A program made the translations under genes and the position numbers. This document shows positions 12,753 through 24,055 of a stretch of 64,000 bases of DNA, piece after piece. The DNA comes from Hydrogenophaga sp. IBVHS1. Its GTDB lineage: Bacteria > Pseudomonadota > Gammaproteobacteria > Burkholderiales > Burkholderiaceae_C. A model generated the notes under the pieces. It did no database searches and was not told where the DNA came from. It was given only the letters and a program-made list of their open reading frames with translations. The DNA is taken from positions 930,001 to 994,000 of the forward strand of contig NZ_NFUU01000001.1 of NCBI RefSeq assembly GCF_002127265.1, read 5' to 3'. Within the stretch, counting starts at the first letter, position 1. Every line of letters begins with the position of its first letter.

Positions 12753-13595
12753 ATGGAGCCGACGCAGGATCTCGCATTCCAGCAAATCAAGACCCGCCGG
12801 GTGTTTGAGGAGATCTGCGAGCAGATCCGCAACCGCCTGAGTTCGGGCGCGCTCAAGCCCGGCGACAAACTGCCCGCCGAGCGCGAACTGGCGCTGGAGT
12901 TCAAGGTGAGCCGGCCCGCAGTGCGCGAGGCGCTGCGCACACTGGAGATCTCTGGGGTGGTCTTCCTGCAGAAAGGGGTCAAGGGCGGCACGTTCATTCG
13001 CGACGGCAACCCCGCCATGCTCACGCAGTCGCTGCAGGACCTGATGTTCCTCGGCCGTGTGACGCTGCGCAGTCTGGCCGAAGCGCGCGTGCTCATCAAC
13101 GGCATGGTCATGCGCCTGGCCTGCGAGCGCGCCACCGAAGAAGACTTCCAGGCCATCGAGCAAAACATCGCGTACATCGAAAGCAGCGATGACATCCTGC
13201 ACCGCGCCAACGCAGGCGTGATGTTCTTCCGCCTGATCGCCAAGGCCACTCGCAACGAAGTGCTGATGATGCTGGTGGATTCGCTCAGCGACATCATCCG
13301 CGTGGTGATCGATCGCACCGGCCGCGTGGCCCGTCCCGAGCTGGTGTCCGTGCGCAAGCGAATCGTCAAGGCCATGCGCGCGCGCGATGCGGATACCGCC
13401 ATCAAGCACATGAATGAATACCTCTCGGTGGTGCACGAGGGCATGGACGCCGATCCGATCGAATTGGTGCGCCCGGGACGCACGGTGGCGGCCGTGGCGA
13501 AAGACGCTCTTCCCCTGAGCAAGGGGCGAGCCAAGCCAGTGGCCAAGAGCGCGGCCAAGCCGGCCAAGCCTTCAGCCCGCACGGCGGCGCGCTGA
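12753..13595 (+). CDS. GntR family regulator, FadR/FCD subfamily
   Basis: A 280-residue regulator. The ATG at 12753 follows GAGGAAG. Residues 15-85 form the winged helix with the usual LPAERELA and SRPAVREALRTLE motifs. Residues 86-228 are an all-helical FCD sensor domain. The metal-binding histidines typical of FCD domains are not visible (FFRLIAKATRN in place of FHxxLAxATHN), so an acyl-CoA-like ligand bound without metal is possible. Residues 250-280 form a Lys/Ala/Pro-rich tail that is probably disordered and DNA-binding. It is the likely regulator of the five TGGTNNNACCA-type operators. Its FCD part is strikingly like that fused to the flavin reductase at 20978. Confidence 0.93.
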   Translation: MEPTQDLAFQQIKTRRVFEEICEQIRNRLSSGALKPGDKLPAERELALEFKVSRPAVREALRTLEISGVVFLQKGVKGGTFIRDGNPAMLTQSLQDLMFLGRVTLRSLAEARVLINGMVMRLACERATEEDFQAIEQNIAYIESSDDILHRANAGVMFFRLIAKATRNEVLMMLVDSLSDIIRVVIDRTGRVARPELVSVRKRIVKAMRARDADTAIKHMNEYLSVVHEGMDADPIELVRPGRTVAAVAKDALPLSKGRAKPVAKSAAKPAKPSARTAAR

Positions 13596-13678: not shown

Positions 13679-13706
13679 TTGACAAGGGGTTTTCGGCACA
13701 TATAAT
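13679..13706 (+). promoter_or_regulatory. near-perfect sigma70 promoter of the 13760 operon
   Basis: TTGACA (13679-13684) and TATAAT (13701-13706) both match consensus exactly, with a 16-base spacer. The perfect palindrome at 13704-13718 overlaps the end of the -10 element, an arrangement expected for a strong promoter held off by a repressor until inducer appears. Confidence 0.85.
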
Positions 13707-13718
13707 GGTCATACCATT
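13704..13718. promoter_or_regulatory. GntR/FadR-type operator, site 3 (perfect)
   Basis: AATGGTCATACCATT is a perfect 15-base inverted repeat containing the FadR-subfamily core TGGTNNNACCA. It overlaps the -10 element of the promoter at 13679-13706. It is the best of the five related sites and defines the motif. Confidence 0.78.
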
Positions 13719-19182: not shown

Positions 19183-19605
19183 TCAGGCAGGACGTGAGGC
19201 GAACAGGGGGCCATCTTCGTATTGAAGGACCACCAGTTCCATGGGAATGCCAGGCTTGAATTCAACGCCCTCGCGTTCCACCATGCGCGTGGCAATGCGC
19301 AGGCCAATGTCGAGGTCCACCACGCAAACGGCGTACGGGGATTCATCGGCAAACACTTTGGGCGCGGCGTGGATGCGGGTCCACGAATACAGCGTGCCGC
19401 GCGCGCTCAGGTCTTTCCACACCATGTCTTCCGACCAGCAATGCGGGCAGATCTTTTTGGGCGGAAAGGTGAACTTGCCGCAGGCCTGGCAGCAGGTGGA
19501 TTGCCACTTGCCTGCCGAGAGCCCTTCCCAGAACGGCTGGGTGAAGGCCGAGACGCGCGGCGGGTAGGCCCGCTTGCGGGCGACGGGGATCAGGTCGAGT
19601 GTCAT
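19183..19605 (-). CDS. Zn-ribbon/OB-fold DUF35 protein (second copy)
   Basis: A 140-residue DUF35 protein with zinc ribbon CQACG and CPHCW separated by ten residues (about 38-54) and an OB-fold C-terminal half. The ATG at 19605 overlaps the stop of the thiolase-fold gene by 4 bases, implying a stoichiometric complex with it. It shares the fold and partner order of the pair at 5186-6822 but differs in sequence, so the two complexes probably act on different intermediates. Confidence 0.9.
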   Translation of the reverse strand: MTLDLIPVARKRAYPPRVSAFTQPFWEGLSAGKWQSTCCQACGKFTFPPKKICPHCWSEDMVWKDLSARGTLYSWTRIHAAPKVFADESPYAVCVVDLDIGLRIATRMVEREGVEFKPGIPMELVVLQYEDGPLFASRPA

Positions 19606-20795
19606 CGGACGGCCTCCAGAACATGGATCAGGGCGGCGTTGTAGTTGCCGAGTTCGCCGGTGGCCAGCCCGAGCCGGGCATTGGCCACCTGCCGTTCGCC
19701 GGCACGTCCCCGCAGCTGATCGGCCACCTCGACCATGTTGTAGAGCGAGGTGACATAGGCGGGGTGGCCGCGTGAGGTGAGGCCGCCGGAGGTGGAGATG
19801 GGGATGCGCCCGCCCAGCCGGGTCTGCCCCTCCAGCGCGCCGGGTGCGCCCTGGCCACGTTTGAAGAAGCCCACGGCCTCGCTCACCAGAATCTCCACGA
19901 TGGTGCAAGGTGCGTAGAACTCGGCGAAGTCGATGTCGGAGGCGCTGATGCCGGCTTGCTTGTAAGCCGTGGCCGAAGCCTCTTTGGCGGCGATCAGCTC
20001 GGTCATGTCGTTCGGGACTTCGTTGATCTGGTGCGAGCCGTCGTGGAAGAAGCCACGGCCGCGCACCAGCACATACGGCTTGCCCAGCGACTTGGCCACT
20101 TCCTCGCTGGCCAGCACCAGGCAAGCAGCGCCGTCGCTGCGCCCGGGCACGTCGTACAGGCCCAGCGGTTCCACGATCGGGCGCTGCGCCATTACCTCGT
20201 CCAGCGTGATCGGCTTGCGGTATTGCGCCAGCGGGTTGAGCGAGGCGTGGTGGCGGTTCTTCACCGCCACCGAGCCGAACTGCTCGCGCGTGGCGCCGTG
20301 GTCGTGCATGTAGCGCATGGCGTCCATGGCGTACCAGGAAATCGGAATGAAGCCGGCGGTGGCGTGGAAATCCACGTCGCCGGTGGAGCGCATGCTGCTC
20401 ATCGCGTGGTCGATGGAGGGCGTGGCCGCTTCCATGTTGATGCCCAGGGCGAGTGCCACATCGGTGCGGCCCAGCATGATCTCGTTGCAGGCCTGATCGA
20501 ACGCCAGCGCCGCTGTCATGCCGTTGCCCATTACTTCCATCACGTTGCCGGTGCAGGGCAGGCGCAGGTGGCTCACCAGGAAGGTGTGGAAGTATTTTTG
20601 CAGCGTGTAGGGCCGCGTGACGGTGAAGATCAGGCTCTGGATGTCCTTGCGGTCCACGCCGGCATCCTTCACCGCGTCCACCACCAGCTTGCTCATGATC
20701 TCCTGTTCAAGCACCTGCAGCGGCTCGTCCGATCGCGTCTGATGACGCCCCACCGGAATGGCGCTGGTGCCCACAATGGCAACGCGTCTTGTCAT
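19602..20795 (-). CDS. thiolase-fold protein, partner of DUF35 (second copy)
   Basis: A 397-residue thiolase-superfamily protein starting MTRRVAIVGTSAIPVG. The position of the thiolase nucleophile holds Gly (VMGNGMTAALAFDQA, residues 88-102) and no cysteine is close, while the late TSGGLTSRGHPAY keeps the GHP histidine. It is therefore not a standard thiolase. By analogy with SCP2-like proteins paired with DUF35 it may be a retro-aldolase or a decarboxylating/condensing enzyme. It heads the leftward operon from a promoter region with two operators shared with the flavin reductase-FCD gene. Confidence 0.85.
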   Translation of the reverse strand: MTRRVAIVGTSAIPVGRHQTRSDEPLQVLEQEIMSKLVVDAVKDAGVDRKDIQSLIFTVTRPYTLQKYFHTFLVSHLRLPCTGNVMEVMGNGMTAALAFDQACNEIMLGRTDVALALGINMEAATPSIDHAMSSMRSTGDVDFHATAGFIPISWYAMDAMRYMHDHGATREQFGSVAVKNRHHASLNPLAQYRKPITLDEVMAQRPIVEPLGLYDVPGRSDGAACLVLASEEVAKSLGKPYVLVRGRGFFHDGSHQINEVPNDMTELIAAKEASATAYKQAGISASDIDFAEFYAPCTIVEILVSEAVGFFKRGQGAPGALEGQTRLGGRIPISTSGGLTSRGHPAYVTSLYNMVEVADQLRGRAGERQVANARLGLATGELGNYNAALIHVLEAVR

Positions 20796-20897: not shown

Positions 20898-20912
20898 ATT
20901 GGTAATACCATT
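20898..20912. promoter_or_regulatory. GntR/FadR-type operator, site 5
   Basis: ATTGGTAATACCATT, with a perfect TGGTNNNACCA core. It touches the -35 element of the rightward promoter for the flavin reductase-FCD operon. Its centre is 61 bases from that of site 4, so the two divergent promoters each have their own site. Confidence 0.68.
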
Positions 20913-20977: not shown

Positions 20978-21961
20978 ATGCCCGACACCGTCACACCCGC
21001 CGTTGCCACGGAGGCGAACCCCGCGTTCGATGTCCGGGCCTTTCGCAACGCGCTGGGCAGCTTTCCCACCGGCGTGGCCATCATCACCACCACCGATGCT
21101 GAAGGCCGGCCGGTCGGCCTGACCTGCAACTCCTTCAGCTCGGTCTCGCTGGATCCACCGCTGGTGTCCTGGGGCCTGCGCATCAACAGCAAAAGCCTGG
21201 GCGCCTTTCAGCAGGCCGGCGCCTTTGCCATCAACATCCTGGCTGAAGACCAGAAGGACCTTTCCGGTCGTTTTGCCAGCGGGCGGATCGTCGACAAGTT
21301 CGAAGGTGTCGCGTGGCACAAGGGTCACCGGAATCTTCCGATCATCGAAGACTGTGTCGCCACGTTCGAGTGCGACAAGTTCGCCGAACACCTGGCGGGT
21401 GATCATGTGCTGTTTCTGGGGCAGGTGGCCCAGTTTGAACACGGCCGCCACGAAGATTCGCTGGTGTTCTACAAGGGCGCCTACATGATGCTCACGCAGT
21501 CGCTCCGTGAGCTGGCCGCGCGCGGTCGCATGGAGCCCGGCAACCTCGACCAGGCCCGTCGCCTGGTCAACTGCATGCTGCTGCGGCTGGCCTGTGAGAA
21601 CGGCGCCGAAGAGGACTTCGATGCGATCGAAAGCAACATTCTGCAGATCGAACAGCTCGCGACCATCGAGGAGCGCGAGCGGCGCGCCGAGGCCAGCCTC
21701 GAATTCTTCCGGTTGATCACCCGGGCGGCACACAACGAAGTGCTGGTGGTGGTGTCGGACACGCTGAACAACATCATGCGGCAGGTGCTCAAGGCCGACA
21801 CGTCGTTGCGCTACCGGCCCGACCTGGTGCCGGTGCGCAAGCAGATCCTGGCGCACCTTCGCCAGCGCGACGCCGAAGCGGCCGAGGCGGCGATGACGCA
21901 CTATTTCGATGAAATGCGCCGCGGCGCGGCCGCTGCGGCTCCAGCGCTTACCCCGACTTGA
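20978..21961 (+). CDS. flavin reductase fused to a GntR-type FCD sensor domain
   Basis: A 327-residue two-domain protein in one uninterrupted frame. Residues 17-168 are a flavin reductase-like FMN-binding split barrel (FRNALGSFPTGVAIITT, CNSFSSVSLDPPLVSW, FAINILAEDQ), normally the NAD(P)H:flavin reductase that feeds a monooxygenase. Residues 170-313 are an FCD helical domain that aligns closely with the sensor half of the GntR regulator at 12753: MLTQSLRELAARGRM, RLACENGAEEDFDAIESNI and VRKQILAHLRQRDAEAA match its MLTQSLQDLMFLGRV, RLACERATEEDFQAIEQNI and VRKRIVKAMRARDADTA. No winged helix is present. The likely idea is a reductase gated by the pathway ligand. It is followed 8 bases later by the KstD-like gene. 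Confidence 0.92.
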   Translation: MPDTVTPAVATEANPAFDVRAFRNALGSFPTGVAIITTTDAEGRPVGLTCNSFSSVSLDPPLVSWGLRINSKSLGAFQQAGAFAINILAEDQKDLSGRFASGRIVDKFEGVAWHKGHRNLPIIEDCVATFECDKFAEHLAGDHVLFLGQVAQFEHGRHEDSLVFYKGAYMMLTQSLRELAARGRMEPGNLDQARRLVNCMLLRLACENGAEEDFDAIESNILQIEQLATIEERERRAEASLEFFRLITRAAHNEVLVVVSDTLNNIMRQVLKADTSLRYRPDLVPVRKQILAHLRQRDAEAAEAAMTHYFDEMRRGAAAAAPALTPT

Positions 21962-21969
21962 GAACACCC

Positions 21970-23733
21970 ATGAGCCAACAAACTGTTTCAGCCCCCGTCA
22001 CCGAGTGCGATGTGCTGGTGATCGGCGCGGGTGCCGGTGGCCTGTCCACCGCGATCAGCGCCCGGCACCACGGCCTGGACGTGGTGGTGGTCGAGAAGGC
22101 ACCTGTCTTCGGCGGAACCACCGCGTTTTCCGGTGGGGTGCTCTGGATTCCTGGCAGCCCGCAGGCGCGCAAGGCCGGCATCCAGGACAGCCGCGAAGCC
22201 GTCATGCGCTACATGCGCGCTGAAACCGGTGCCTTCTTCGACCGCCCGGCGGTCGAGGCCTTCGTCGACCGGGGGCCAGAGATGGTCGAGTTCTTCGACC
22301 GCGAGACCGAGCTCAAATTCATCCCCACCCTCTACCCTGACTACCACCCCGATGTGGACGGTGGTGTGGACATCGGCCGCTCGATCCTGGCCGCGCCTTT
22401 CGACATCCGCGGCCTGGGGCAAGACATGGCGCGCCTGCGTCCGCCGCTGGCCACCATCACCTTCATCGGCATGATGTTCAACTCGTCCAACGCCGATCTC
22501 AAGCATTTCTTCAACGCCACCAAGTCCCTCAAATCGGCGATCTACGTGGGCAAACGCCTGCTCACGCACATCAAGGAACTGGTGCTCTACCGGCGCGGCG
22601 TGCTGGTGACCAGTGGCAATGCGCTGGCGGCGCGGCTGGCCAAGTCGGCGCTGGACCTGAAGATTCCGATCCACACCTCCACGCCCGCGCGCGAGCTGCT
22701 GGTGGAAGACGGTCGTGTGGTCGGAGCGCGCGTCGCCGGGCCCGATGGCGAGCGCGTCATTCGCGCGCGCAAAGGCGTGGTGCTGGCGGCCGGTGGTTTT
22801 GCGCACGATCTGGAGCGCATCCAGCGCGCCTACCCGCACCTGCGGCGTGGTGGCGAACATTTCTCCCCTGTGCCCACCGACAACACGGGCGACGGTTCAC
22901 GCATGGCCGAGCAGGTCGGCGGCACCGTGCCGATCCGCTTTGCGTCGGCGGCAGCGTGGATGCCCACCTCCAAAGTACCGCGCAAGGACGGAACCTTTGG
23001 TGCCTTCCCACACCTGCTCGATCGCTACAAGCCGGGCATCATCGGCGTGCTGCGCAACGGCAAGCGTTTCACCAACGAGTCGAACTCGTACCACGACGTG
23101 GGCGCCGCCATGATCGAGGCCTGCAAGAACGACCGCGAAACCGCGATGTGGCTGATCTGCGACCAGGCCACCATCAGCAAATACGGCCTGGGTTACGCCA
23201 AGCCCGCGCCCATGCCGCTGGGTGGCTTCGTGCGCAATGGTTACCTGAACAAAGGCCGCACGCTGGCCGAACTGGCCCAGAACGCGGGCCTTGATGCTGC
23301 CGGGCTGGAAGCCACCGTGCGCCAGTACAACGAGGGCGCCGTGCGTGGTGAAGACCCCGAGTTCGGCCGGGGCCGCACCTCGTTCAACCGTTACCTGGCC
23401 GATCCCGAGCAGAAACCCAACCCCTGCGTGGCACCAATCGGCGACGGGCCCTACTACGCGCTCAAGCTGTTGGTGGGTGACCTTGGCAGTTTCGATGGCA
23501 TCACCACCGATGTGGCCGGCCGCGTGCTCGGCGCGCAGGGCGGGCCGATCCCGGGCTTGTTTGCCGTGGGGAACGACCGCGCCAGCGTGATGGGCGGCAA
23601 CTACCCGGGCGCCGGCATCACCCTGGGGCCGATCCTGACCTTCGGTTACCTCACCGGGCGTTTCATGGCGGGTCTCGAACCCGGGCTGGAGACGGCCGTC
23701 AATCAGGAGGAAGCGCATGCTGTTGCAGCCTAA
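21970..23733 (+). CDS. FAD-dependent oxidoreductase, 3-ketosteroid-dehydrogenase-like
   Basis: A 587-residue flavoprotein. The ATG at 21970 follows TTGAGAA and begins eight bases after the flavin reductase-FCD stop. The FAD motif is VLVIGAGAGGLSTAISARHHG with VVEKAPVFGGTTAFSGG. The C-terminal FAD and substrate motif GLFAVGNDRASVMGGNYPGAGITLGP is typical of 3-ketosteroid Delta1-dehydrogenases and relatives. It should dehydrogenate next to a ketone or in a saturated ring. The substrate need not be a steroid. It overlaps the NIPSNAP gene by 17 bases. Confidence 0.9.
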   Translation: MSQQTVSAPVTECDVLVIGAGAGGLSTAISARHHGLDVVVVEKAPVFGGTTAFSGGVLWIPGSPQARKAGIQDSREAVMRYMRAETGAFFDRPAVEAFVDRGPEMVEFFDRETELKFIPTLYPDYHPDVDGGVDIGRSILAAPFDIRGLGQDMARLRPPLATITFIGMMFNSSNADLKHFFNATKSLKSAIYVGKRLLTHIKELVLYRRGVLVTSGNALAARLAKSALDLKIPIHTSTPARELLVEDGRVVGARVAGPDGERVIRARKGVVLAAGGFAHDLERIQRAYPHLRRGGEHFSPVPTDNTGDGSRMAEQVGGTVPIRFASAAAWMPTSKVPRKDGTFGAFPHLLDRYKPGIIGVLRNGKRFTNESNSYHDVGAAMIEACKNDRETAMWLICDQATISKYGLGYAKPAPMPLGGFVRNGYLNKGRTLAELAQNAGLDAAGLEATVRQYNEGAVRGEDPEFGRGRTSFNRYLADPEQKPNPCVAPIGDGPYYALKLLVGDLGSFDGITTDVAGRVLGAQGGPIPGLFAVGNDRASVMGGNYPGAGITLGPILTFGYLTGRFMAGLEPGLETAVNQEEAHAVAA

Positions 23734-24055
23734 AGCGCTGGTCGACCACCGCATCTACACCATCAAGCTGCGCAAGATGCCGGAGTTCCTGGAGGTGTTC
23801 GATCGCCTGGCCATGCCGGTGCTGCTCAAGACGCTGGGCACGCCGCTGGCGTTCTATTCGAGCGTGGTGGGCCCGCTGAACCAGGTGGTGCACCTCTGGG
23901 GTTACGACGACATGGCCGACTACGAGCGCCGCTCGCTCGCCCGCGACACGCACCCCGATTTCCCGGCCTACCTTTCGGCCTCCGAACACCTCATCGTGGC
24001 GCAGGAGACGCGCCTGATTCGCCGCATCGACCTGCCCAGCCTGCGCCAGGGCTGA
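23717..24055 (+). CDS. NIPSNAP family protein (second copy)
   Basis: A 112-residue protein (LVDHRIYTIKLRKMPEFLEVF; VVHLWGYDDMADYERRS), a NIPSNAP alpha/beta barrel. The ATG is inside the 3' end of the flavoprotein gene, and a GGAGGAA ribosome site precedes it. The role is unknown; position between a flavoprotein and a Rieske oxygenase suggests it helps the oxidative steps, possibly as a small isomerase or a carrier of a reactive intermediate. Confidence 0.88.
   Translation: MLLQPKALVDHRIYTIKLRKMPEFLEVFDRLAMPVLLKTLGTPLAFYSSVVGPLNQVVHLWGYDDMADYERRSLARDTHPDFPAYLSASEHLIVAQETRLIRRIDLPSLRQG

Follow-up and report, generated by a model that had tools for sequence, protein, structure and literature searches.

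A flavin reductase fused to the FCD sensor domain of GntR regulators, a candidate metabolite-gated enzyme in Hydrogenophaga and related bacteria

What does the sensor domain of a GntR regulator do when it is joined to an enzyme? The question is raised by an open frame in a 64,000-nucleotide stretch of the Hydrogenophaga sp. IBVHS1 genome (the window; features in Table 1), for which the original prediction, made from the sequence alone, had proposed a flavin reductase running directly into an FCD domain and lacking any DNA-binding domain. Pfam searches and a structure model agree with this proposal. Flavin_Reduct (PF01613) covers residues 27–170 of the protein (E 1.4e-43, 149 bits against a cut-off of 27) and FCD (PF07729) covers residues 192–311 (E 4.5e-16, 59.8 bits against 24.3), while no winged helix, other DNA-binding domain or third family of any kind was found by Pfam up to E 1. 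Since no winged helix was found and the N-terminal half is a flavin reductase, the protein is not a GntR regulator.

Table 1. Features of the fusion locus in the window
Feature	Position	Strand	Basis or remark
Flavin reductase-FCD fusion gene, 327 aa	20978..21961	+	Intact open frame; kept in 59 other loci
Flavin reductase split-barrel domain, residues 17-170	21026..21487	+	PF01613, fold, invariant columns
FCD sensor domain, residues 171-316	21488..21925	+	PF07729, fold, column counts
FAD_binding_2 flavoprotein (3-ketosteroid dehydrogenase-like), next operon gene	21970..23733	+	Candidate flavin acceptor or pathway enzyme
Small protein, NIPSNAP-like by sequence reading, third operon gene	23717..24055	+	Cluster membership
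Thiolase-like gene, transcribed away from the fusion gene with the operator region in between	19602..20795	-	Neighbourhood
Palindrome TGGTAATACCA, probable GntR operator	20900..20910	.	67 nt 5' of the fusion ATG
Second palindrome copy TGGTCATACCA	13706..13716	.	Between the GntR-1 gene and the amidohydrolase gene
GntR/FCD regulator GntR-1, closest FCD in the window to the fused one	12753..13595	+	FCD tree, identity; ~7.4 kb upstream

The structure model was built on a 55-row alignment (pLDDT 83.9, pTM 0.56). Modelled residues 30–165 match solved flavin reductases, led by 3rh7 (Z 22.8) and HPAH C1 (5zyr, Z 22.4), and the predicted split-barrel fold is shared with many solved members at Z 16–23. 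Modelled residues ~175–320 match the FCD domains of DhdR (9jpk, Z 19.2, 2.1 Å over 135 residues) and PdhR (5tpm, Z 18.6, 2.2 Å over 141 residues), and those of DhdR, PdhR, DgoR and others all fall at Z 17–19, so that an unrelated fold for the C-terminal half, which would have contradicted the prediction, is not what Pfam and the model find. These FadR-subfamily GntR regulators share the C-terminal FCD fold with the fusion protein but carry a winged helix where the fusion has its reductase. The low pTM leaves the relative placing of the two halves uncertain in the model. The reductase half contains many invariant columns among 55 aligned fusion members, and by its sequence and predicted fold we infer a flavin reductase family member with NAD(P)H:flavin reductase activity.

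The trivial explanation, that a sequencing error joined two genes or that the gene is decaying, can be dismissed. A scan of genome contigs left 79 kept loci, of which 59 (L029–L087) match both halves of the fusion and 20 match only in, or little beyond, the reductase half. Because 59 other loci span both halves, a joining error is excluded, and dN/dS values from four pairwise comparisons (0.08–0.14 for the reductase half and 0.07–0.35 for the FCD half) indicate that both halves are under purifying selection. An artefact is thereby refuted, and we give it practically no weight. Genera represented among the loci are Variovorax, Xenophilus, Hydrogenophaga, Ramlibacter, Pseudorhodoferax, Ottowia, Trinickia and others. 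Counting the own genome every time, matches to both halves came from 4 of 100 relatives, 11 of 399 genomes belonging to the family (a twelfth matches in the N-terminal half only) and 1 of 369 from the class, the family and class searches being run at E 1e-45. On plasmids, coverage of the query reached 80% or more in 3 of 1016 matching records, each of them from Variovorax. The family of FCD fusions is narrow at the search sensitivity used, at which distant or independent fusions would escape. Gene calling missed the fusion gene in L038 and L045, cut it short in L041 and misplaced its start in L042, L066 and L071. The FCD tree and column counts given below use 61 fusion rows, made up of the window, L010–L012 and 57 genes from 56 loci (L046 contributing two), including duplicates (L011 equals L044, and L010 and L029 have identical FCDs); 55 of the 61 rows entered the alignment behind the structure model and 18 the reductase tree. 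A single Xenophilus contig (L046) carries two copies of the fusion.

We propose that the fusion protein works as an NAD(P)H:flavin reductase and that a pathway metabolite, by binding to its C-terminal FCD, gates this activity, a reading to which we give a probability of about 0.6. It follows from the precedent of HPAH C1 (AbHpaC) of Acinetobacter baumannii, in which the same plan is realized with another sensor. According to a review, the MarR domain of HPAH C1 inhibits the reductase until 4-hydroxyphenylacetate binds, flavin reduction is enhanced at least 30-fold by this compound, and such gating is 'not common ... except for AbHpaC' (PMC10816480). Like the fusion protein, HPAH C1 (5zc2, 5zyr) begins with a reductase of the same family (134 aligned residues, 40% identity) and ends with a sensor of the regulator type; the two differ in that the sensor of C1 is MarR, with 4-hydroxyphenylacetate as ligand, while that of the fusion is FCD. 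The fusion protein is not a member of the C1 family, since it reaches 166 bits against a cut-off of 340 for NF045919, with a match limited to residues 16–175, and has no MarR domain. In the proposed mechanism, the FCD, which controls a winged helix in a GntR regulator, would control the flavin-reducing barrel in the fusion. Without ligand it would restrain the reductase and with ligand it would release it, a sign of gating that we infer, and reduced flavin would be produced only while the pathway runs.

The claim that no enzyme of this build had been described thus stands for the FCD version, but not for the general plan, in which HPAH C1 with its MarR domain precedes. A search of the open literature (titles and abstract starts) found, among the matches listed, no paper on FCD or IclR fused to a flavin reductase. 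Gating of such a reductase is already known; the FCD version, its kinship to the pathway's regulator and the shared operator described below did not appear among those matches. The short reductases of two-component monooxygenases (PheA2, HpaC, StyB/SMOB) have the reductase domain and fold of the fusion but no C-terminal sensor, with chain lengths of 149–190. SMa0793 of Sinorhizobium meliloti (3rh7) is the best match of the reductase half by both sequence and structure and also has a C-terminal domain; that domain, however, aligns with a group modelled with a Nudix-like fold, and the record names only a putative oxidoreductase.

Domains of several other kinds were found at the place that the FCD occupies. 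A Diaphorobacter plasmid gene (L168:2995-4065, NZ_CP049906.1, 356 aa) has IclR_C at residues 175–348 (E 2.1e-9, over the cut-off), and its neighbours, a luciferase-like monooxygenase, AtuA and DUF4387, recur together next to the FCD-fused genes in L042, L043 and L064. IclR_C fusions (such as WP_166071235.1 from Diaphorobacter sp. HDW4B) resemble the FCD fusions in joining a reductase to a regulator sensor, and some share their neighbours, but the sensor is IclR_C and the reductases form a separate clade; when reductase domains were placed in a tree, the 18 FCD fusions included made up one clade with support of 95/93, apart from the IclR fusions. Full-length relatives of the IclR fusion occur in 12 of 399 family genomes, that of L168 included, at 13 places, and four more genomes match in the N-terminal half only. 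Pfam assigned IclR_C in L168 and L022, the other IclR fusions being full-length matches to L168, and no DNA-binding domain was found in the IclR-fused reductases. A luciferase-like monooxygenase lies in 11 of the 13 IclR-fusion stretches (L186–L198), three of which are cut by contig ends, four of the matches being weak (22–30% identity). In L019, L020, L024 and L028, MarR_2 follows the reductase at a score just over the Pfam cut-off. L014 aligns with HPAH C1 over nearly its full length, and L018 aligns with it in part and has a separate match to a MarR regulator. In the group of SMa0793, the model of the C-terminal domain matches Nudix proteins at Z 13–15, a reading that rests on one modest model (pLDDT 74), and Pfam assigned no Nudix family in the three members scanned or in L165. 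All 15 reductases with the Nudix-like extension in L088–L107 lie near a luciferase-like monooxygenase, against none of the 4 without an extension; one further reductase is cut by a contig end. These rates are not a census, because the reductase sets were chosen by likeness to the query; nine loci with short reductases (L002, L013, L015–L017, L021, L023, L025 and L027) were left out of this neighbour comparison. As separate observations, the MarR-fused genes of L019, L020, L024 and L028 belong to the window's own genus and share a reductase clade with short ones that lack MarR, and L165:3998-4969 encodes another flavin reductase with a Nudix-like C-terminal domain, with a luciferase-like monooxygenase in the surrounding DNA.

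That IclR, MarR and Nudix-like domains take this position in other flavin reductases suggests that sensors have been recruited repeatedly, which we regard as the most interesting outcome of the analysis. As several unrelated domains stand there and three of them are found in regulators, sensing itself is arguably the point of the arrangement. This bears on the alternative that the FCD is only a structural or dimer-forming tail and the reductase is ungated, which we hold to be unlikely. FCD domains form dimers in regulators, as this alternative would have it, and the model, with its pTM of 0.56, leaves the meeting of the halves unfixed. However, reductases of the same fold do without a tail, among them one encoded on C3 of the own genome that ends 6 residues after the domain; R236, N253 and R287 of the FCD are invariant in all 61 fusion rows, though in GntR-2 (the second local GntR) too; and a mere tail does not explain why other sensor folds stand at the same place. 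If the FCD, IclR and Nudix-like fusions are gated as well, ligand-controlled supply of reduced flavin would be a common answer to wasteful autoxidation, reached several times. The FCD fusion would further offer a natural test of one sensor fold driving two unrelated outputs, and ligand-gated reductases could serve as components in biocatalysis with flavin monooxygenases and in metabolite biosensors.

The fused sensor was compared with FCD domains of GntR proteins. The kinship to a local GntR protein claimed by the original prediction is evident: the fused FCD is 46% identical over 143 residues to that of GntR-1, 39% to the GntR protein at C1:893758- and 32% to GntR-2, and the short motifs listed as common to it and the upstream GntR protein do recur in both. 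In a tree of 114 FCD domains, kept from 147 prepared rows (the 33 dropped include extra reading frames added deliberately), all 61 fused FCDs group together behind a branch with support of 100/98, and the nearest non-fusion rows are GntR proteins, namely that of C1:893758-, 57 kb upstream in the same genome, and the GntR-1 group. Few columns and long branches make the exact sister of the fused FCDs uncertain, and it is safer to state that they are nested among GntR sensors. Within the reading of a gated reductase, the fused FCD appears to have been taken once from a GntR protein of a kind still encoded ~7 kb away.

Conserved columns of the pocket were then counted in the 61 fusion rows and in 15 GntR-1 rows, two of which are the same gene (L038 and OTH_L157). 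A three-histidine metal site is usual, although not universal, in FadR/FCD GntR regulators. At the three columns that we take to be the metal ligands, histidine occurs in 0 of 61 fusions and 0 of 15 GntR-1 rows, against 7 of 7 ordinary FCD proteins of the own genome, which form a distant branch of the FCD tree; 5 of the genome's 19 FCD places (L119, L122, L127, L128 and L136) were left out. In the window the histidines are replaced by F244, R287 and Y309; across the fusion rows, column 244 is F or Y, column 287 is R and column 309 is L, Y or F, and GntR-1 has F, R and Y. GntR-2 rows retain histidine at column 244 only (15/15). R236, N253 and R287 are likewise invariant in GntR-1, and as all 15 GntR-2 rows have them too, they do not single out a shared ligand. 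At column 203 the fusions have mostly R and GntR-1 has E in 9 of 15 rows, and at column 240 the fusions have A, S, T or M (S240 in the window) and GntR-1 has G in all 15. The column pattern fits a metal-free pocket acquired by common descent, and a common ligand is not proven by it.

An operator-like palindrome ties the fusion gene to the local GntR proteins. The 64-kb window contains two copies of the pattern TGGTNNNACCA, at 13706 and 20900, the latter touching a -35-like TTGACG at 20911. In the subgroup of the window (13 other loci, L029–L041) it stands 5' of the amidohydrolase gene in 13 of 13 loci and 5' of the fusion gene in 12 of 13 (not L041), against 0 of the 46 loci outside the subgroup; in L034, L037 and L039 it falls inside the called fusion frame because the gene caller chose an upstream start. 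The three middle bases agree between the two copies in 10 of 12 loci and differ in L029, L040 and the window. The broader TNGTNNNACNA, which is the FadR-type GntR consensus, shows no enrichment in the window, with 4 copies against 4.68 expected, and evidential weight lies only in the stricter TGGTNNNACCA with its fixed place across loci. Over the whole genome TGGTNNNACCA occurs at 51 places, against 168 for a control pattern read backwards, and among the matches listed 9 of the 51 sites fall within 83.8 kb (C1:867141-950910) where about 1 is expected; the P of 8e-7 for this clustering is too small, since the ends of the stretch were set by the sites themselves. This ~84-kb stretch holds four GntR/FCD genes besides the fusion. 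From the placement and clustering of the palindrome, the fusion operon is very probably in the regulon of these GntR proteins, any of which is a candidate for the binder. As a side observation, the stretch (C1:~867000-951000, ending with window positions 1–21000) carries SDR-, thiolase/ChsH2-, CoA-transferase-like and monooxygenase-like FAD genes, named mostly by sequence reading, and may degrade an alicyclic or steroid-like compound.

The kinship of the two FCDs, the lack of the metal histidines in both and the common palindrome together suggest that regulator and enzyme may read the same ligand, so that the metabolite gating the reductase is perhaps the one sensed by GntR-1 and one compound would probably set transcription and electron supply together. 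Such a shared ligand had been part of the original prediction, in which acyl-CoAs were candidates. The FCD tree and the shared palindrome speak for it, and the differences at columns 203 and 240, where R203 is mostly replaced by E and S240 by G in GntR-1, weaken it. Under a shared ligand, the pair of enzyme and regulator sensors could reveal the ligand of the catabolic island.

The same observations could be taken to mean that the fusion acts mainly on transcription, its FCD pairing with, or taking ligand from, a local GntR protein and so linking regulation to the supply of flavin and NADH. The 46% identity between the FCDs of the fusion and GntR-1 and the operator-like palindrome common to the fusion operon and the neighbour of GntR-1 would suit such a role, yet the wider family does not. 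When the FCD of L047 was searched against 12 genomes (one of which, the twelfth, also has a locus of the window's subgroup, and for three of which the query itself is distant), 4 had no other match and 7 more only matches of E 3.5e-9 or weaker. Outside the subgroup the palindrome is lacking (0 of 46 loci) and no close GntR protein accompanies the fused FCDs in the genomes searched, yet both halves are retained; the reductase columns, moreover, are conserved. A main action on transcription is therefore quite improbable, and ligand titration, the second role originally suggested, is unlikely as the main one of the family, as close rival sensors are mostly absent from the 12 genomes. A wider version of the gated-reductase reading can be held tentatively, at somewhat less than even odds: flavin reductases would be a general output module repeatedly given metabolite sensors, mostly effector halves of transcription factors (MarR, FCD, IclR) but also a Nudix-like domain, and in the window's subgroup a graft closely kin to the pathway's own regulator would have come to stand in an operon under the regulon's operator, so that a single metabolite, through two copies of one sensor, governs enzyme production as well as electron flow.

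We finally asked which protein might receive the reduced flavin. Outside the subgroup, tblastn of the flanking stretches with six query proteins placed a luciferase-like monooxygenase near the fusion in 42 of 46 loci (the exceptions are L045, L055, L066 and L083, the last at a contig edge), and in 21 of the 46 it is the directly preceding gene, 13–47 nt away. The HPAH oxygenase C2 belongs to another class than these monooxygenases. Among the 13 loci of the window's subgroup, L031 is the single one with such a gene, which lies 4 kb downstream of the fusion; a second fusion gene follows ~4 kb beyond it, and because the same kind of monooxygenase adjoins the related fusion of L046, we assigned it to that second fusion. 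The genes concerned (L046, 1481-2482 and 9899-10900; L031, 20356-20904) represent a further branch of FCD fusions near another kind of luciferase-like monooxygenase. Two PF00296 genes exist in the own genome, but they lie far away and are less than 35% identical to the usual partners, and for this distance in place and sequence they were set aside as flavin acceptors; PF08028 gave 35 matches in the own genome, among which dehydrogenases and hydroxylases are not separated. With the usual partner absent from both the subgroup and the own genome, the flavin acceptor here is missing.

The gene order of the subgroup offers a candidate. In this order, which is largely kept, GntR-1, amidohydrolase, cupin, TctC-like and FAD-binding genes are followed by GntR-2, NIPSNAP, ChsH2-like and thiolase-like genes and then by the fusion and the FAD_binding_2 flavoprotein. 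In every one of the 11 related loci showing both, the fusion gene shares 4 nt (ATGA) with the flavoprotein gene; the window has TTGA at those four bases and an ATG at 21970. The overlapping flavoprotein is a candidate recipient of the reduced flavin, and in an alternative form of the proposal the subgroup's reductase would feed this protein and not an oxygenase, with gating by the FCD unchanged and hence compatibly with the preferred reading. The constant overlap favours this form, as does the single luciferase-like monooxygenase among 13 loci, itself probably tied to a second fusion. On the other hand, the flavoprotein's best NCBIfam matches, none of which reaches its cut-off, are to dehydrogenases and FAD-dependent oxidoreductases; such dehydrogenases need no flavin reductase, and overlapping genes indicate co-translation only. 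We consider this form possible, though doubtful. The small protein behind the flavoprotein gave no NCBIfam match; its cluster takes in the window and L081 together with 11 loci of the subgroup, L029 being absent from it. Of the two PF00296 genes mentioned above, one (C1:1779108-1780058, L108) is a luciferase-like monooxygenase domain inside an NRPS-like frame of more than 1200 aa.
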